A stretch of DNA of 64,000 nucleotides from Hyphomicrobiales bacterium. GTDB lineage: Bacteria; Pseudomonadota; Alphaproteobacteria; Parvibaculales; Parvibaculaceae. The notes below the pieces were generated by a model. It was not told the DNA's origin. It made no database searches and saw only the letters and a program-made list of their open reading frames with translations. The stretch spans positions 186,001 through 250,000 of the forward strand of contig WGND01000011.1 in NCBI GenBank assembly GCA_016124805.1, written 5' to 3'. The position numbers were made by a program, and so were the translations under genes. This document shows positions 4,690-13,399 of the stretch, one piece after another (the first letter of the stretch is position 1; every line of letters begins with the position of its first letter).

Positions 4690-4999
4690 TCTGTATGCAC
4701 CCGATTTACTTGCTCCGCCTTTAAAAAAAGACGTGTCTAAACCGATAACAATATGTCGTTCGCAAAGTCTGGTGGCATCGCAGGATGAAGGTCAAGTAAG
4801 TTTGCTTTCAAATCTAGATAGCCAACGTCATGGCCATTCGACTTTGCATTATTTAATTTACGAACCTCAATATTTTCTTGAGTGAAAGGTGTGGTCAGTT
4901 TTTACTTTAAGTTACTGATGTATATATGAATTATTTGACGGAAAAATCTATCTAACCCATTGAAATTATTTAATTCTCTCCCTCTTTCCTTTCTGGAAA
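4690..4999. other. AT-rich noncoding right flank of the island
   Basis: About 310 bases without a credible gene. The stretch 4840-4990 is strongly A/T-rich with several TTATTTAATT-like tracts, unlike the chromosomal background. It ends at the TTCTGG-A-tract that precedes the repeated tRNA end. It could hold recombinase arm sites or a decayed gene; nothing specific can be claimed. Confidence 0.5.
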
Positions 5000-5031
5000 A
5001 AAGAGGGGTTCGATTCCCCTAGGGCGTACCA
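5000..5031 (+). repeat. attR: truncated copy of tRNA-Glu 3' end
   Basis: A 32-base direct copy of 2444-2475 with one substitution in the T loop (T at 5014). It lacks the D arm, the anticodon and the 5' acceptor strand, so it is not a functional tRNA. It marks the right border of the island. Normal GC-rich coding resumes within about 220 bases. Confidence 0.85.
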
Positions 5032-5190
5032 TTATTGAGCATCTCCCGAACTTATTGAACGGCTCACGCAGGGTTTGCCTTGCGCGCGCGTGCGAACTGA
5101 AATTCCTCGTTCATTCTTGCAAAGCCGGGCTTGCAAAGCTTGCCTGTGGGCGCGATTGCGGCACAATGCTAAAAAGAAACTCAGGTCAGG

Positions 5191-5212
5191 GGGGCAACCG
5201 GATGGTTGTCCC
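5191..5212 (+). promoter_or_regulatory. Hairpin in leader of nitronate monooxygenase-like gene
   Basis: GGGGCAACC and GGTTGTCCC can form a nine-pair stem (one G-U) with a GGAT loop, about 43 bases before the start codon at 5256. It is followed by TGAAAAA rather than a T tract, so a leader structure is as likely as a terminator for reading from the island side. The role is unknown. Confidence 0.3.
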
Positions 5213-5255
5213 TGAAAAATGAATTCGGCGGCACGCCGTTCAGCAGGGCAGGAAC

Positions 5256-6233
5256 ATGAAAACACGCATTACAGAGCTTTTTGGAATCCAGCACCCGATC
5301 ATTCAGGGCGGCATGCATTTTGTGGGGCTGGCCGAGATGGCTTCGGCCGTGTCCAATGCCGGCGGCCTTGGCATCATCACGGGGTTGACCCAGCCGACGC
5401 CGGAAAAGCTGGTGGAGGAAATTGCCAAATGCAGCAAGATGACGTCCAAGCCCTTTGGCGTGAACCTCACCTTCCTGCCGGGCTTTGCCAATCCGCCTTA
5501 CCCGGAATATATCGACGCGATCATTGACGGCGGCGTGAAGGTCATCGAAACAGCCGGTCGCAGCCCGGAAGCCTATATGGACAAGATCAAGGGCGCGGGC
5601 ATCAAGGTCATCCATAAATGCACCTCGGTCCGCCATTCCCTCAAGGCCGAGAAAATCGGCTGCCATGCCGTCAGTGTCGATGGTTTTGAATGCGGCGGTC
5701 ATCCCGGCGAAGATGACATTCCCAACATGATCCTGCTGCCGCGCGCGGCTGAAGAGCTGAAGATTCCCTTCGTCGCCTCAGGCGGCATGGCCGATGGCCG
5801 TTCGCTCGTCGCCGCCATGGCCCTCGGCGCTGAAGGCATGAATATGGGCACGCGCTTCATCGCCACCAAGGAAGCGCCCGTTCATATCAATGTGAAGAAT
5901 GCGATTGTCGCGGCAAGCGAGCTCGACACGCGCCTCGTCATGCGGGGCCTGCGCAATACAGAGCGCGTGCTCACCAATGCGGCGGTTGAAAAGATCGTCG
6001 AGATTGAAAAAGAGAAGGGCGACAGCATCGCCATTGAAGATATTCGCGAACTGGTGGGCGGTGTCTATCCGCGCGTCATGCAGGAAGGTCTGATGGATGC
6101 AGGTGCCTGGAGCTGCGGCATGGTTGCAGGTCTCATCCACGACATCCCGACCTGTCAGGAGCTGATCGACAACATCATGAATGAAGCTGAAGCGATCATT
6201 CGCAAGCGTCTTGAAGGCTTCCTTGCCGCCTGA
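5256..6233 (+). CDS. Nitronate monooxygenase-like flavoprotein
   Basis: A 325-residue TIM-barrel FMN enzyme of the 2-nitropropane dioxygenase/nitronate monooxygenase family. It opens with HPIIQGGMHFVGLAEMASAV and has the GGLGIITG turn near residues 37-43, the SVDGFECGGHPGEDD segment (residues 140-154) with the conserved His, and the phosphate-binding ASGGMADGRS near 174-183 followed by GAEGMNMGTRF. Family members oxidise nitronates such as propionate 3-nitronate, but many are uncharacterised. The gene stands alone between the tRNA-Glu island and a bidirectional terminator. The start follows a weak AGGG-type ribosome site. Confidence 0.88.
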   Translation: MKTRITELFGIQHPIIQGGMHFVGLAEMASAVSNAGGLGIITGLTQPTPEKLVEEIAKCSKMTSKPFGVNLTFLPGFANPPYPEYIDAIIDGGVKVIETAGRSPEAYMDKIKGAGIKVIHKCTSVRHSLKAEKIGCHAVSVDGFECGGHPGEDDIPNMILLPRAAEELKIPFVASGGMADGRSLVAAMALGAEGMNMGTRFIATKEAPVHINVKNAIVAASELDTRLVMRGLRNTERVLTNAAVEKIVEIEKEKGDSIAIEDIRELVGGVYPRVMQEGLMDAGAWSCGMVAGLIHDIPTCQELIDNIMNEAEAIIRKRLEGFLAA

Positions 6234-6256
6234 TGCTGCCAACGCCTGAATAACAA

Positions 6257-6285
6257 ACGGCCCGCTTTTCAGCGGGCCGTTTTCG
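6257..6285. terminator. Bidirectional Rho-independent terminator
   Basis: ACGGCCCGC (6257-6265) and GCGGGCCGT (6272-6280) form a perfect nine-pair stem with a six-base TTTTCA loop. It is followed by TTTTC on the plus strand and preceded by an A-containing stretch that serves the minus strand. It sits between two converging genes that end at 6233 and 6287. Confidence 0.85.
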
Positions 6286-6286
6286 T

Positions 6287-6706
6287 TTACCAGTGACCGA
6301 TATTTTCCATCGAGGCCCAGGGCTCCTGCTTGGGCAGGGCGTCGCCCTTTTGCAGCAGCTCAATCGAGATATTGTCCGGCGAGCGCACAAAGGCCATATG
6401 CCCGTCGCGGGGCGGGCGGTTGATGGTGATGCCCGCATCCATCAGCTTCTGGCACAGGGCATAGATATCATCGACCTCATAGGCGAGATGGCCGAAATTG
6501 CGGCCTTCACCCAGTTCTTCCTTGTCCCAGTTATGGGTCAGCTCCACCTGGGCTTCTTTCTGGCCGGGGGCTGCGAGAAAGACGAGGCTGAAGCGACCGG
6601 CTTCAATGTCATATTGGCCGAGCTTTTCGAGGCCCAGCGCATCGCAGTAGAACGCCAGCGATTTGTCGAGATCATTGACTCGCACCATGGTGTGGAGATA
6701 TTTCAT
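6287..6706 (-). CDS. gloA: Lactoylglutathione lyase (glyoxalase I)
   Basis: A 139-residue VOC-fold metalloenzyme that isomerises the methylglyoxal-glutathione hemithioacetal to S-lactoylglutathione. All four metal ligands are in place: H5 in LHTMVRV, E55 in QVELTHNW, H73 in FGHLAYEV and E116 in SIELLQ. NDLDKSLAFYCDALGL is the usual first helix. It is a single-gene unit divergent from the sirtuin gene, with a 76-base intergenic region that must hold both promoters. It ends at the shared terminator with the upstream flavoprotein gene. Confidence 0.9.
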   Translation of the reverse strand: MKYLHTMVRVNDLDKSLAFYCDALGLEKLGQYDIEAGRFSLVFLAAPGQKEAQVELTHNWDKEELGEGRNFGHLAYEVDDIYALCQKLMDAGITINRPPRDGHMAFVRSPDNISIELLQKGDALPKQEPWASMENIGHW

Positions 6707-6782
6707 CTTCGCCTCTTGTCTTACTTTTGGATGTGTCCTGTGACTAATATGGGCATCATAACCCGAAAGTCACGAGGCTGTT

Positions 6783-7520
6783 TTGAACGAATTGAAGCGT
6801 GCCATAGACGAAGCCGCCCTGATTGTTGTGTTCACGGGCGCGGGCATCAGCACGGAATCCGGTGTGCCGGATTTCCGCAGCCCCGGTGGTCTGTGGACCA
6901 AAATGGCGCCGATCGAGTTCAAGGATTTTCTGGCCTCGCCCGAGTTGCGCGTGGAAGCCTGGAACCGGAAATTCGAAATCGACAAGACCATGATCAACGC
7001 CCAACCCAACAAGGGCCATATGGCGATTGCCAAGCTTGTCGATGAGGGGCGCGTGAGCCATGTCATCACGCAGAATATTGACAATCTGCATCAGCATTCC
7101 GGCGTGCCGCCTGAACAGATCATCGAGCTGCATGGCAATGGCACCTATGCCAAATGCTTAAGCTGCGGTCAGCGGCATGAGCTCACCGACGTCAAAGCCA
7201 TGCTTGAGGCGACGGGGCAGGCGCCCGAATGCGTCTCATGTGGCGGCATCGTCAAGGGGGCGACCATCTCCTTTGGCCAATCCATGCCGGAGGATGAGAT
7301 GATGCGGGCGCAGGAGGCGACCCTTGGCTGCGATCTCTTCATTGCCATAGGGTCTTCGCTGCAGGTTTATCCGGCTGCCGGTTTTCCCATTCTCGCCAAG
7401 AAAAACGGTGCGCTGCTAGTCATCCTCAATCGCGAACCCACGCCGCTCGACGAGATCGCTGATCTGGTGATCCATGACGAGATCGGCCCGACACTTGGCG
7501 CCGTCGCGATGCTGAACTGA
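6783..7520 (+). CDS. cobB: NAD-dependent protein deacylase, Sir2 family
   Basis: A 245-residue sirtuin that removes acyl groups from protein lysines using NAD. The motifs are complete: GAGISTESGVPDFR near residues 19-32, QNIDNLHQHSG at 97-107, the catalytic His in ELHGN (H117), and a zinc site with C125, C128, C150 and C153. GSSLQVYPA and a closing ILNREP follow. The start is TTG at 6783, supported by GAGG five bases before and the lack of an in-frame ATG. Its stop abuts the stop of the converging VOC gene with no base between. Confidence 0.92.
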   Translation: MNELKRAIDEAALIVVFTGAGISTESGVPDFRSPGGLWTKMAPIEFKDFLASPELRVEAWNRKFEIDKTMINAQPNKGHMAIAKLVDEGRVSHVITQNIDNLHQHSGVPPEQIIELHGNGTYAKCLSCGQRHELTDVKAMLEATGQAPECVSCGGIVKGATISFGQSMPEDEMMRAQEATLGCDLFIAIGSSLQVYPAAGFPILAKKNGALLVILNREPTPLDEIADLVIHDEIGPTLGAVAMLN

Positions 7521-8012
7521 TTATTCCGGTTTCAGCTTTGTGACCGGATTGAGAAATGCCGTCATCTCGTCCCACCGCCTTGCAATCATGTCGCGTGCGG
7601 CCCGCCGTGTCATCACTTCCAGCCGCAGCCCGTCGGGATCATTGAAAAAGGTCGCGTAATAATCCGGCGCATAGTCAGTGTGGAAGGCCGGGGCGCTGGC
7701 CCCAATGTCCATCCGGTTGAGAGCCGCCGCCAGCCGATCCACATCCTCATTGCTTGCGACCTGCAGGCAGAGATGATGCAGGCCGGGCGAATAGGAATCA
7801 TGGGGCGTGAAGCCCTCCCGTGCCGGGCGAATGGTGATCTGCATCACCGGATTGAAATAATGCCGGTGCGGTGTGTTGGCGATGGTGAAGTCGCTTTTGC
7901 GGAAATCAAGCAGCCCCAGCACCTTGTCATACCAGGCTTCGGACCGGGCCATATCGGAAACGGTCAGATAGATGTGATCAAGGCCGACAACGCGGATGGG
8001 AGTGTCTGCCAT
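7521..8012 (-). CDS. VOC-family protein paired with halohydrin dehalogenase
   Basis: A 163-residue vicinal-oxygen-chelate protein. Likely metal ligands are H13 (LDHIYLTV), H79 or H80 (GLHHLCLQV) and E132 (LRLEVM), the usual His/His/Glu pattern. The frame is open further upstream, but the ATG at 8012 is chosen because the residues before it overlap the preceding gene and are low-complexity. It starts four bases after the stop of the SDR-fold gene, so the two are probably co-expressed. VOC members include glyoxalases, extradiol dioxygenases and FosA/FosB epoxide-opening enzymes; the last would fit an epoxide-forming partner, but this is inference only. Confidence 0.85.
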   Translation of the reverse strand: MADTPIRVVGLDHIYLTVSDMARSEAWYDKVLGLLDFRKSDFTIANTPHRHYFNPVMQITIRPAREGFTPHDSYSPGLHHLCLQVASNEDVDRLAAALNRMDIGASAPAFHTDYAPDYYATFFNDPDGLRLEVMTRRAARDMIARRWDEMTAFLNPVTKLKPE

Positions 8013-8016
8013 GATC

Positions 8017-8757
8017 CTATCGCGATGTTGCCCAGCCGCCGGCCACCGGGATGAGCTGGCCGGTGATGAAGTCTGATTTCTGGCTGGCGATGAAGGCGAC
8101 GAGGGCGGCGGCTTCCTCCGGTTTGCCAAGGCGGCGCATCGGGATATTGCCGAGAATCTTGTCGCGCGTGCGCGGGTCTTCCATCAGCGAGGCGGGGAAA
8201 TAATCCGGACTCTCGATAAAGTTGAAGGCCAGCGCATTGACCTGAATATTGTCGCCCGCAAGTTCTTTCGCGAGCGTCAGGGCCAGTGAATTGGTTGCGC
8301 CTCTGGCGGCCGCATAGATGCTGTAATTGGGAATGCCATTCAGCGGCGCGGCTGAGGAGAGAAAGAGTATTTTTCCCTGCTTGCGCGATTTCATGTGCGG
8401 GGCGGCGGCACGGGTAATGGCGAAGGATTTGAAGACCAGTGCCTCGAATGATTCGTGGAGGTCCTTGTCCGTTGCCTCTGCGATCGGGCCGCGCACGGCG
8501 GGCCAGGCATCATTATTGATGAGAATGTCGAGCTGGCCTTCCTTGGCGAGGATTTCAGCCACCACATCGGCCGGTGATCTCGGCGTCAGGAGCGTTGCGC
8601 CGGGCAGGGTTTTTGCAAAGTCGGTCCGCGTCGCCTCATTGGCAAAGGCTGAGTCCAGCCCGTAAATTGTGACGTCTTCCGCCATCAGGGCGCGTGCCGA
8701 CGGACCGCCCAGAAAATGGGTGATGTCGGTTATCAGTGCCACGCGTTTGTCGCTCAT
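8017..8757 (-). CDS. Probable halohydrin dehalogenase (SDR fold)
   Basis: A 246-residue SDR-fold protein that lacks the glycine-rich NAD(P) motif. Instead it has T10-x4-F15-x-G17 (TDITHFLG), and the catalytic set is S135, Y148 and R152, i.e. S-x12-Y-x3-R with Arg in place of the SDR Lys. Those two patterns are the established signatures of halohydrin dehalogenases (HheA-HheG), which convert vicinal haloalcohols to epoxides and release halide without a cofactor. NNDAWP near 81-86, KSRKQGKILFLSSA and the SPDYFP segment also recall HheC. No halide-handling neighbour except the VOC gene is visible. Alternative: an uncharacterised, cofactor-less SDR relative. Confidence 0.8.
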   Translation of the reverse strand: MSDKRVALITDITHFLGGPSARALMAEDVTIYGLDSAFANEATRTDFAKTLPGATLLTPRSPADVVAEILAKEGQLDILINNDAWPAVRGPIAEATDKDLHESFEALVFKSFAITRAAAPHMKSRKQGKILFLSSAAPLNGIPNYSIYAAARGATNSLALTLAKELAGDNIQVNALAFNFIESPDYFPASLMEDPRTRDKILGNIPMRRLGKPEEAAALVAFIASQKSDFITGQLIPVAGGWATSR

Positions 8758-8867
8758 GGGGCCTCCGGCAAGCCGTTTCCTGATTATTCAGCGCTGGGAT
8801 GAAATGCGCTGTTTGCCTCGTCAGCACAACGCATTAGGCTTGAGGGGTCAAGTATACAAAATACGGA

Positions 8868-10508
8868 ATGACTTCGTTGAATATGAACATCCAGAACATC
8901 ACGGCGCCCTGGTGGCAGGGGGCCGTTGTCTACCAGATTTATCCGCGCAGTTATCGCGACAGCAATGGCGACGGCATCGGCGATCTGAAGGGCATCGAGG
9001 AACGACTGGACTATATCGCCACACTGGGCGTGGATGCGATCTGGCTCTCGCCATTCTATCCCTCACCCAATCGCGACTTCGGCTATGACGTGTCGGATTA
9101 TTGCGCGGTGGCGCCTGACATGGGAACGATGGAAGACTTTGACCGCATTGTTACCGGCGTTCATGAGCGCGGCATGAAGCTGATCATTGATCTGGTGCTC
9201 TCGCATACATCCGAGGAGCATGAATGGTTCCAGAAAAGTCAGCTCTCGGACGATAATGACAAGTCAGACTGGTATGTCTGGGCCGATGCCAAGGAAGATG
9301 GCACGCCGCCAACAAACTGGCTGAGCCCTTTTGGCGGCACCACCTGGTCGTGGCATCCGCTGCGCCGGAAATATTATTTCCACAAATTTCTCAAGAGCCA
9401 GCCCAAGCTCAATTTCCACAATCCCGATGTTGTGGATGCACTGATGGATGTGCTGCGCTTCTGGCTTGACCGGGGCGTGGATGGCTTCCGCCTCGATGTC
9501 GCCAATTCCTATGTGCATGATCTTGAGTTGCGGGACAATCCGCCGGTACCGATGGACGAGCGCACCCTGTTCGACTGGGGCCATGCGCCGCGTCTGCAAC
9601 GCCATATCCACGATTCCAATACGCGCGAAAATGAGGAAGCCATGAAGCGCGTGCGCGCTGTCATGGATGAATATAATGACCGCTTCGCCTTTGGTGAATT
9701 CTCCGAAGAGCCTTCCATGCTGGAGCTTTATGCCGGCGGGCCGGAACTTCTACATACGGGCTACACATTCCATTTTCTGGAATCCTGGGATCTGTCACCG
9801 GCAACGGTTGAGGCCAATTATCAGGCACCTTTTGGCGGGCACGCCGAACTCTTTCCCTGTGTGACTTTTTCCAATCATGACTTTGTGCGGCCGGTCACGC
9901 GCTGGGGCGGCGGGCTGGGCGACGATCCGCTTGCCATGCTGATGATGACGCTGCTCATGACGCTGCGCGGCACGGTGCTGATGTATCAGGGCGAGGAGCT
10001 TGGCCTGCCTGAAACCGATCTTGCGCATGAAGATATTCGCGATCCCGTGGGCGAACTCTATTTTCCATGGGTCAAAGGCCGGGACGGGTGCCGCACGCCC
10101 ATGCCGTGGCAGGCGATGGCCGATCATGCCGGTTTCAGCAAGGTGAAACCCTGGTTGCCGATCCCGGAATATCACAGCATCCGCGCCCATGACATGCAGG
10201 AGCGGGAAAGTGACTCCGTGCTGGCCCATTCACGGCGCATCATCGCGCTGCGCAAGGCGCATCCGGCGCTGCGGCTCGGCACCATCCATTTCATGAAGAT
10301 GCCCGATCCCGTTCTTGGTTTTGAGCGCGTCCATGAGAATGAAAAAATTGTCTGCTTCTTCAATCTGGGTCGTGAAGAGTTGCGCATAACGCTGCCCATC
10401 GATACCAGCCAGATTGTGGAAGAACTCAATGTCCGCACCGGTCTTGTCCAGCGCGAGGGCAATGAACTTCTCATGGGACCGCGCTCGGTCTTCATGGCCA
10501 GACTTTAG
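8868..10508 (+). CDS. Alpha-glucosidase, glycoside hydrolase family 13
   Basis: A 546-residue retaining alpha-amylase-fold enzyme, likely cleaving terminal alpha-glucosyl bonds of small maltooligosaccharides, isomaltose or sucrose-type substrates. The barrel opens with WWQGAVVYQIYPRSYRDSNGDGIGDL in the form typical of oligo-glucosidases. The nucleophile is D210 (FRLDVAN), the acid/base E277 (FGEFSEE) and the third carboxylate D338 (FSNHDFVR). No signal peptide is visible, so it is probably cytoplasmic. It is divergent from the dehalogenase gene, and a globin gene follows after 40 bases. Confidence 0.92.
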   Translation: MTSLNMNIQNITAPWWQGAVVYQIYPRSYRDSNGDGIGDLKGIEERLDYIATLGVDAIWLSPFYPSPNRDFGYDVSDYCAVAPDMGTMEDFDRIVTGVHERGMKLIIDLVLSHTSEEHEWFQKSQLSDDNDKSDWYVWADAKEDGTPPTNWLSPFGGTTWSWHPLRRKYYFHKFLKSQPKLNFHNPDVVDALMDVLRFWLDRGVDGFRLDVANSYVHDLELRDNPPVPMDERTLFDWGHAPRLQRHIHDSNTRENEEAMKRVRAVMDEYNDRFAFGEFSEEPSMLELYAGGPELLHTGYTFHFLESWDLSPATVEANYQAPFGGHAELFPCVTFSNHDFVRPVTRWGGGLGDDPLAMLMMTLLMTLRGTVLMYQGEELGLPETDLAHEDIRDPVGELYFPWVKGRDGCRTPMPWQAMADHAGFSKVKPWLPIPEYHSIRAHDMQERESDSVLAHSRRIIALRKAHPALRLGTIHFMKMPDPVLGFERVHENEKIVCFFNLGREELRITLPIDTSQIVEELNVRTGLVQREGNELLMGPRSVFMARL

Positions 10509-10548
10509 GGGCCCGCAAAGAGGCACCTCATACAAGGGAGACAACCCG

Positions 10549-10956
10549 ATGAATGGTGATCTGATACTTCGCTCGCTTGATCTCGTTGCTGAACGCTGCG
10601 AGGACCCGACACCGCTTGTCTATGAAAGGCTGTTTGCGCGCCACCCCGAAATGGAGCCGCTATTCGTCATGGACAAAAGCGGTGCCGCCCGCGGCCATAT
10701 GCTCAGTGAGGCCATTGAAAGCCTGATCGATTTTGTCGGGCCGCGCAGCTATGCCGTTACGCTTTTGCAAAGCGAACACATCAATCACAACAATCTCGGC
10801 GTGCCTTCGGACATCTTCACGACCTTTTTCGACAATATGAAAGAGAGCTTCCGCGCGATCCTCGGGGATGAATGGACGGATGAGACCGATGCCGCCTGGT
10901 GTGAGGCGCTTTTGGCCATTGACGAGGTGATGAAATCGACCAGCCTGCCGCATTAG
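10549..10956 (+). CDS. Globin-family protein
   Basis: A 135-residue single-domain protein resembling bacterial globins of the Hmp/Vgb type. The LVYERLFARHPEMEPLF segment matches the A-to-C helix region, and SEHINHNNLGVPSDIF supplies the probable proximal heme His, followed by the helix-G and H region ending LLAIDEVM. The ATG at 10549 is chosen over upstream starts because AAGGGAG lies nine bases before it and the preceding codons overlap the alpha-glucosidase gene. Function (oxygen or NO binding) is unknown; heme binding should be regarded as probable. Confidence 0.8.
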   Translation: MNGDLILRSLDLVAERCEDPTPLVYERLFARHPEMEPLFVMDKSGAARGHMLSEAIESLIDFVGPRSYAVTLLQSEHINHNNLGVPSDIFTTFFDNMKESFRAILGDEWTDETDAAWCEALLAIDEVMKSTSLPH

Positions 10957-11035
10957 CCTAGTCAGTTCTAAAAAAGCATTGATTATCGTCTTTGCCTTCC
11001 CATATGGTTTGAACCAGCAAAATGGGGAGCGGATC

Positions 11036-11776
11036 ATGGATAAACCAACAGCGGTTGTATTGGGCGTCGGTGCGGAAAATGGCGTGGGGGCGGCTGTCTG
11101 TCGCCGCTTTGCGGCGGAAGGGCATCACGTGCTCGTGGCCGGTCGGACGCAGGACAAGATTGATCAGATTGTTGATACGATCTCGCAGTCGGGCGGCACG
11201 GCGGAAGCTGTGCTTGTGGACGGGACGAAGCAGGATCAGGTCGTCGCACTGTTTGATCGCGCCATGGCACCGGGCAAGGGGTTTGCACCCGCAGATGCCG
11301 CCATTTTCAATATGGGCAACAACCAGTTTATTGATTTTCTCAAAGTCGATGCTGCCAAGTTTGAGGATTTCTGGCGCGTGGGCTGTTTTGCCGGGTTCCT
11401 TTTCGGGCAGGAGGCCGCGCGCCGTTTCATGCCGCTTGGGCGCGGCACAGTCATTTTCACCGGCGCATCAGGCAGCCTGCGCGGCAAAGCGGGTTTTGCC
11501 CAATTTGCGGCCGCCAAGGCAGGTCTGCGCATGATCTCGCAGAGCATGGCACGCGAATTTGGTCCTGGCGGGCTGCATGTGGCGCATGTCGTGATCGATG
11601 GTGGCATCAATGGCGAAAGGCTGCGAACCGGCGCACCCAAATATGTCGAGTTCAAGGGCGAGGATGGTTTGCTCGAAGTTGACGACATTGCCGCCAATTA
11701 CTGGATGTTGCATCAGCAGCCGAAATCAGCATGGACGCAGGAACTTGATCTGCGCCCCTTCAAGGAAGTCTATTGA
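11036..11776 (+). CDS. Short-chain dehydrogenase/reductase-like protein with Tyr-to-Phe change
   Basis: A 246-residue Rossmann protein with a normal dinucleotide motif (GVGAENGVG near residues 9-17) and a Ser in TGASGS. At the catalytic YxxxK position the sequence reads FAAAK, so the usual Tyr is Phe while the Lys is kept. This variant occurs in a family of proteobacterial SDRs whose substrates are not known. The ATG at 11036 follows GGGAGCGG and is preferred to an upstream start. It is convergent with the molybdopterin gene (11783), with only six bases between the stops. Confidence 0.85.
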   Translation: MDKPTAVVLGVGAENGVGAAVCRRFAAEGHHVLVAGRTQDKIDQIVDTISQSGGTAEAVLVDGTKQDQVVALFDRAMAPGKGFAPADAAIFNMGNNQFIDFLKVDAAKFEDFWRVGCFAGFLFGQEAARRFMPLGRGTVIFTGASGSLRGKAGFAQFAAAKAGLRMISQSMAREFGPGGLHVAHVVIDGGINGERLRTGAPKYVEFKGEDGLLEVDDIAANYWMLHQQPKSAWTQELDLRPFKEVY

Positions 11777-11782
11777 CGGCTT

Positions 11783-13399
11783 TCACCTTTTGCGGTGATC
11801 GGCCAGCGCCTCTGCCGTGTCGATGTCCCTGAGCGGGGCATCGTCCGGCATGGGCACCTCCACCACGTCTTCCTCATGCAAGCCGATAAGATGCTTGGCG
11901 CCGACATCGCCTTTGAGATCGCGCATCTCGTCCAGAAAGCTTGCCCCCCACAATACGGGGTTACCGCGCTTGCCTTCAAATGTCGGCACGCAAACGTTGC
12001 GGCCCTCTTCCGGATCGAAGGCGGCGATCAGCCGGTTCAGATGCGCCGGGGTGATGGAGGGCATGTCGGCAAGGCAGATGATGACGCCATCAATATCCTC
12101 GGGCAGGGCGGCAAGCCCCGCTTTCAATGAGGTACTGAGGCCGTCGGCATAATCCGGATTATGCGCCAGCGTGACCGTGAGGCCGCCCAGTGCATCTCGC
12201 ATCTTGTCGGCCTGATGGCCGGTCACAACGAATACGCCGCTGGCCTGGCTGTCCAGCGCGGCCTTGACCATATGGGTCACCATTGGTTGGCCGTCGATCT
12301 CGGCGAGCAGCTTGTTGGGCCCCTGCATGCGGCTTGAGCGGCCGCCAGCCAGAATGAGCGCGGCAATGCGCGGCGCGCTTGCAGAGGTGGCTTGCGTGCC
12401 GTCGCGCGGCTGGGGTCTTGTCCGGATTTCCTTCAGCAGGCCGCCCACGCCCATCTGCATTACATCGCCCGGCGTCACAGGGAGATCGGCAAGCAGCCGG
12501 GCCAGCACAAAATCAAAGCCATTGAGCGCGGGCGAGCGGGCGCAGCCGGGCAGGCCGATCACGGGTACCTTGCCGTGTCTCGCCAGCAGCATCAGATTGC
12601 CGGGGTCCACGGGCATGCCGAAATGCAGGACGTCGCCCCCGGCGCGCGCAATCCCGGCAGGTACCACGTCCGCGCGGTCGGAAGTCGCCGATGCGCCGAA
12701 TATCAGCACCGGCGAACAGCCCTCATCCAGCAGGTCGCGAATGGCGGTCGTCACCTCTGCTTCGTCATGATGGCAGCGGATCTCGCGGGCGATCCGGCTG
12801 CCCATTGCCTCCAGCCGCGCCTCAAGCACCTTGCGGGACTTGTCATGGATCGAGGCTTTCATGCCCGGCAGTGTCGTGGCGACAAGCCCGACCTTGTGAG
12901 GCGTGAAGGGGCGGGTGCTGATGAGCGGGCCTGCTTCCCGGGCAATTTCGATGGCGTGATCGAGATGGGCCTGCTTCACGGCATAGGGGATGATCTTGAT
13001 CGTGGCGAGCATCTGGCGCGCCTCCACCCGTTCAAAGGGGGCCAGCGTCGCGATGGTGATGGCCTCGCCCAGCAGGTTGATGCGGTTCACGCGGGCCCGG
13101 TCAATGGTGACGAGGCCTGCCACCTCGGCATAGAGATTGGCCCGCCCGGTGAAGGCTTCGGCGCGCTTGATGCCGCTACCGGCCAGTGCATCTGCCAGGG
13201 CGGCGGCAGCCTCATCCTCAGGCACGTCGCCTGCTTCAAGTCTTGCCCCGACAATCTTCAGAATATCGGCCTGGGTCAGCGTTTCGATATCGGCGGCGCT
13301 CAGCACCCGGCCTTTGCGGAAATGCACCTCACCGACATGGATGGAATGGGCGAGGATCGCCCCTTCGGCCTCGGCGGCGAGCATCTGGCCGAAGATCAT
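11783..13399 (-). CDS. MoeA-like/MobA-like fusion, molybdenum cofactor cytidylyltransferase type
   Basis: A 538-residue two-domain protein. Residues 1 to about 350 resemble the molybdopterin-binding MoeA/MogA-type domain, with GLPGCARSPALNGFDF near its end. From about residue 365 a nucleotidyltransferase domain starts with ALILAGGRSSRMQGPNKLL and contains LADMPSI, the acidic metal site of MobA/MocA. Such fusions are thought to attach CMP to molybdopterin for xanthine-oxidase-family enzymes, which fits its place at the end of the cox/xdhC operon. It overlaps the xdhC C-terminal-domain gene by four bases. Confidence 0.85.
   Translation of the reverse strand: MIFGQMLAAEAEGAILAHSIHVGEVHFRKGRVLSAADIETLTQADILKIVGARLEAGDVPEDEAAAALADALAGSGIKRAEAFTGRANLYAEVAGLVTIDRARVNRINLLGEAITIATLAPFERVEARQMLATIKIIPYAVKQAHLDHAIEIAREAGPLISTRPFTPHKVGLVATTLPGMKASIHDKSRKVLEARLEAMGSRIAREIRCHHDEAEVTTAIRDLLDEGCSPVLIFGASATSDRADVVPAGIARAGGDVLHFGMPVDPGNLMLLARHGKVPVIGLPGCARSPALNGFDFVLARLLADLPVTPGDVMQMGVGGLLKEIRTRPQPRDGTQATSASAPRIAALILAGGRSSRMQGPNKLLAEIDGQPMVTHMVKAALDSQASGVFVVTGHQADKMRDALGGLTVTLAHNPDYADGLSTSLKAGLAALPEDIDGVIICLADMPSITPAHLNRLIAAFDPEEGRNVCVPTFEGKRGNPVLWGASFLDEMRDLKGDVGAKHLIGLHEEDVVEVPMPDDAPLRDIDTAEALADHRKR

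Follow-up and report, generated by a model that had tools for sequence, protein, structure and literature searches.

The locus raises the question of whether a gene that reads at first sight as an SDR encodes a halohydrin dehalogenase (HHDH), as an earlier note had claimed, and what such an enzyme would do in its natural setting. Within the window (the whole stretch of 64,000 nucleotides analysed here), the gene, P0001, runs on the minus strand from an ATG at 8757 to a stop at 8017 and encodes 246 amino acids; the plus strand of this interval contains stops in the frame of the HHDH gene and is not open. The HHDH motifs were reportedly defined by a 2014 paper. In the portions of PMC4989007 and PMC11976700 available to us, they are given as T-x4-F/Y-x-G (motif 1) and S-x12-Y-x3-R (motif 2). 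We found that P0001 carries each of them exactly and once, with all six residues where the earlier note had placed them. Motif 1 (residues 10-17, TDITHFLG, with T10, F15 and G17; 8707-8730, minus strand) corresponds to the halide/nucleophile pocket that replaces the glycine-rich NAD(P) loop of SDRs, and motif 2 (residues 135-152, SAAPLNGIPNYSIYAAAR, with S135, Y148 and R152; 8302-8355, minus strand) holds the predicted catalytic Ser-Tyr-Arg. When the residues of P0001 were shuffled 100,000 times, both motifs arose jointly by chance in 0.063% of the shuffles. Both were also intact in 23 of 25 further aligned homologue rows, the remaining two being fragments.

The reverse comparison gave a consistent picture. 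A motif scan found neither the SDR glycine-rich motif T/S-G-x3-G/A-x-G nor Y-x3-K in P0001. As controls we used 20 SDR-type proteins of the window genome, which are its matches to an HheC query apart from P0001; they are not every SDR of this genome, since a P0001 query gave 34 matches there (E<=0.001). The glycine motif was present in 16 of these 20 and Y-x3-K also in 16, and none of the 20 carried either HHDH motif in the scan.

Comparison with known proteins pointed the same way. Among the sequences of solved structures, the closest to P0001 was 6a41, a 'dehalogenase' (4.3e-60), followed by HheC forms (2e-36 to 1e-33), HheA forms (1e-33 and 6e-33) and 8oxf (1e-31), with the first ordinary SDR, a reductase, at 1.4e-25. 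HheG forms ranked just above the ordinary SDRs and HheB forms among them, which accords with the statement, in the part of PMC4989007 available, that HHDH subtypes are <30% identical to each other. The earlier note had asked for a phylogeny, and the outcome that it would have taken as refuting, a position outside the HHDH clade, did not arise. In a maximum-likelihood tree of 37 rows, 19 HHDH-type rows were split from 18 SDRs by a branch supported at 100/100, and P0001 fell inside the HHDH side, which was represented among solved structures by two references, HheC and 6a41; HheA proper, HheB, HheD, HheE, HheF and HheG sequences were left out of this tree. Also left out were three of the 20 SDR-type proteins (L056, L067 and L069), in which the scan found no SDR Y-x3-K, and some of the SDR rows formed long branches.

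HHDHs are homotetramers with an SDR-like Rossmann fold. An AlphaFold2 model of the P0001 monomer (19 sequences; pLDDT 88.1, pTM 0.89) was most similar in Foldseek to 6a41 (TM 0.91/0.92), with HheC at ranks 2-11 and HheA at ranks 14, 16 and 17. A second structural comparison gave a Z score of 34.1 for 6a41; FabG-type SDRs scored as high as HheA in it (30.8 versus 30.6), indicating that fold alone does not separate HHDHs from SDRs. Thus 6a41, annotated as a 'dehalogenation enzyme', is the top match both by sequence (42% identity over 239 amino acids, with both motifs) and by structure, but it joins HheC in the tree (95/86) and not directly the orthologues of the window gene. HheC of Agrobacterium radiobacter AD1 is 33% identical to P0001 over 240 amino acids and shares its catalytic triad, halide pocket motif and side of the tree. 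The HheA, HheD and HheG types have the same fold and motif logic but are more distant, at 30% identity for HheA, 27-30% for HheD2/HheD8 and 29% for AbHheG in Foldseek.

Motifs, tree and structure comparison therefore agree on an HHDH rather than a cofactor-dependent SDR, and we conclude with high confidence that the earlier note named the family correctly and that P0001 is a predicted cofactor-independent HHDH of the HheA3/6a41-like branch. Pfam and NCBIfam gave it the names of SDR families only, none of them over the cut-off among the 25 NCBIfam matches listed. This accounts for the SDR label that a gene of this type would receive, and it is also what speaks for an ordinary NAD(P)-dependent SDR whose motifs match by chance. 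That reading is contradicted by the missing glycine motif and Lys, by the lack of HHDH motifs in the SDR-type controls and by the placement in the tree, and we regard it as extremely improbable. P0001 confirms that reading motifs can uncover true HHDHs beneath generic SDR labels.

Next, we considered how new this HHDH is. In G014, very probably the genome of Parvibaculum lavamentivorans DS-1, an orthologue 74% identical to P0001 lies in a syntenic position (G014:C1:3151113-3151838). It is the one HHDH candidate of that genome, where the next match to the HheC query drops to 1.6e-14, and it is therefore very probably the published HheA3 of DS-1. According to the available part of PMC4989007, HheA3 has been produced, assayed and applied in synthesis. 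P0001 is thus very probably the orthologue of an already characterised enzyme. It offers little beyond HheA3. The claim of a 'new' HHDH holds only weakly: the gene is a further HHDH, but one with a close, syntenic and very probably known counterpart. The DS-1 locus resembles that of the window in carrying both motifs and in having the GloA, Sir2, GH13 and 'MobA' neighbours described below, and differs in that the DS-1 copy has no VOC gene after it.

On the basis of this close relation to assayed HHDHs, we infer that P0001 would catalyse the HHDH reaction. The catalytic mechanism has been published (PMC4989007 and PMC11976700, as far as their accessible text goes), and its residues were transferred to P0001 by position. 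Tyr148 would deprotonate the hydroxyl of a vicinal haloalcohol, with Arg152 lowering the pKa of Tyr148 and Ser135 holding the substrate oxygen. The halide would then depart into the pocket formed by Thr10, Phe15 and Gly17, leaving an epoxide, and NAD(P) would take no part. Being reversible, the reaction would also let halide, azide, cyanide or nitrite open epoxides.

We also examined how widely the gene is distributed. Named genomes with an orthologue belong mostly to Parvibaculum and to Parvibaculaceae/Rhodobiaceae. Matches at E<=1e-38 were found in 17 of 27 genomes of the genus; by identity, 14 of the 17 have an orthologue, and G003, G004 and G007 have a more distant relative (37-40%). Among the other family genomes included as relatives, 7 of 10 have an orthologue at 54-58% identity. 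Across the class, a homologue at E<=1e-38 was present in 45 of 385 sampled genomes, so the statement that HHDHs are 'few' is out of date. Both motifs occurred in 35 of 42 HHDH-type homologues (41 of 43 loci read), the 42 being 47 matches minus five counted as plain SDRs. When plasmids were searched with the HHDH, the matches listed were generic SDRs only, at <36% identity. The chromosomal HHDH of the window was apparently inherited vertically.

The surroundings of the gene are also conserved. They comprise a GloA-like lactoylglutathione lyase gene (6287-6706, minus strand), a Sir2-type deacylase gene (6783-7520, plus strand), a GH13 glycosidase-type gene in divergent orientation to the HHDH gene (8868-10508, plus strand) and a large frame (11783-13399, minus strand) that bears the working label 'MobA', given from reading and without a family search. 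These four and the HHDH gene occur together in most of the family, and two genomes from a different family (L114 and L136) likewise have GloA, Sir2, HHDH and GH13 together, so that the neighbourhood is common to this family and at least one other. Outside the family, the neighbours that recurred in an all-against-all comparison were mostly shadow frames of the HHDH gene, SDRs and scattered families. A setting as stable as this, in contrast to that of HHDHs derived from enrichments on haloalcohols, makes the locus a fair place to probe the natural role of HHDHs.

Between the Sir2 and HHDH genes of the window lies a gene for a VOC-superfamily (glyoxalase-like) metalloenzyme of 163 amino acids (7521-8012, minus strand; Pfam Glyoxalase 1.7e-11). 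Its ATG lies four bases beyond the stop of the HHDH gene, in the same orientation, a spacing that suggests coupled translation, and the two genes are probably co-transcribed. One explanation would be a two-gene module, in which the HHDH forms an epoxide and the adjoining VOC enzyme uses water or a thiol to open it, in a Fos-like manner. Fos enzymes open the epoxide fosfomycin. In addition to the gene spacing, such a module would fit the recurrence of the pair in another genus (L034 and L037), the invariance of the candidate metal ligands H12, H78/H79 and E131 among three sequences, and weak matches of the VOC protein to Fos families (E 4e-7 to 1e-2). However, these matches are far under the curated cut-offs, the best scoring 25.1 bits where 240 would be required, and the best PDB matches of the VOC protein are glyoxalase-superfamily proteins without stated function. 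The VOC gene adjoins the HHDH gene in only 3 of 21 orthologue-bearing family genomes, namely that of the window and G029 and G033, the last two from one genus. Two sister genomes with no HHDH match (G006 and G016) retain a VOC gene, 70% identical, at the corresponding position, flanked by GH13 and Sir2, where tblastn found no trace of an HHDH; the relatives of the VOC protein are 54% identical in L034/L037 and 70% in L132/L133. The neighbour comparison further covered 29 loci, that is, 27 HHDH loci outside the family and the two HHDH-less slots of G006 and G016; none of the 27 had a VOC match at 1e-10, and the only matches at this threshold came from the two slots. A broad HHDH-VOC association was accordingly rejected, and we consider a two-gene module unlikely. 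Each of the two genes is found without the other, so calling the VOC gene a 'conserved partner' was too strong and an obligate link is not supported; most likely, the two were present together in an ancestor and were each lost several times. We give equally little credence to the wider proposal that the pair is an ancestral module leading from halohydrin through epoxide to an opened product, in which the VOC enzyme would be a new kind of epoxide-opening partner whose loss was made good by unlinked epoxide hydrolases.

No epoxide hydrolase gene adjoins the HHDH gene; HheC, in contrast, shares an operon with one, according to the available part of PMC11976700. Unlinked epoxide hydrolase families are present over the cut-off in the window genome (two of PF07858 and one of PF06441), so that an epoxide could be handled in trans. 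Our guess is that P0001 may serve to remove small haloalcohols and that the epoxide may pass to these unlinked hydrolases or to the adjoining VOC enzyme. The other explanation is that the reaction is right but the natural substrates are not haloalcohols, the enzyme having some other physiological lyase or epoxide-opening role. The broad spread of HHDH homologues across the class and the conserved neighbours without a link to halogens are in keeping with such a role. The part of the review available (PMC4989007) leaves room for other physiological functions and counts only two HHDH genes, among those known then, that share an operon with an epoxide hydrolase gene. A literature search on natural role, gene cluster and Parvibaculum HHDHs yielded nothing beyond that review and the other cited papers, as far as their text was accessible. 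On the other side, P0001 retains all six catalytic and pocket residues, and its DS-1 orthologue has very probably been assayed as an HHDH. A different natural substrate therefore seems to us possible but the less favoured reading; it touches the physiological role and leaves the HHDH reaction itself untouched.

Several variant loci were also seen among the homologues. In one of the genus genomes with a distant relative, locus L045 (G004:C23:95054-107785; positions 4877-12117) contains an HHDH-type gene, 38% identical to P0001 and with both motifs. This gene and a haloalkane dehalogenase gene (NF002043 over the cut-off; 6f9o at 3.5e-98) are divergently oriented, and two flavin monooxygenase-like genes and a P450 come after the HHDH-type gene. 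The combination of haloalkane dehalogenase and HHDH in one natural locus resembles the engineered trichloropropane route, in so far as the available text describes it. A haloalkane dehalogenase was over the family cut-off in all three genomes with the distant HHDH-type gene (G003, G004 and G007); none was over it in the window genome or in G014, where the scores were 247 and 134 bits, respectively, against 265. Other loci contained altered or duplicated copies. At L129 (5998-7478), there is a tandem HHDH-type pair whose second copy lacks both motifs, with Gly in place of the aromatic residue of motif 1 and Tyr-x3-Gln; neighbouring pairs of matches also occur in G240 and G329. In L047 (G025:C12), the HHDH is a C-terminal remnant of 116 residues within a long contig, with no GH13 match beside it. 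In the homologues of L131, L137 and L138 (G070, G182 and G387), motif 1 and the Arg are retained but Pro takes the place of the catalytic Tyr; these are possibly non-catalytic or differently acting members. Finally, motif 1 has Trp for Phe/Tyr in L118 and L121 (T-x4-W-x-G) and Ser for Thr in L123.
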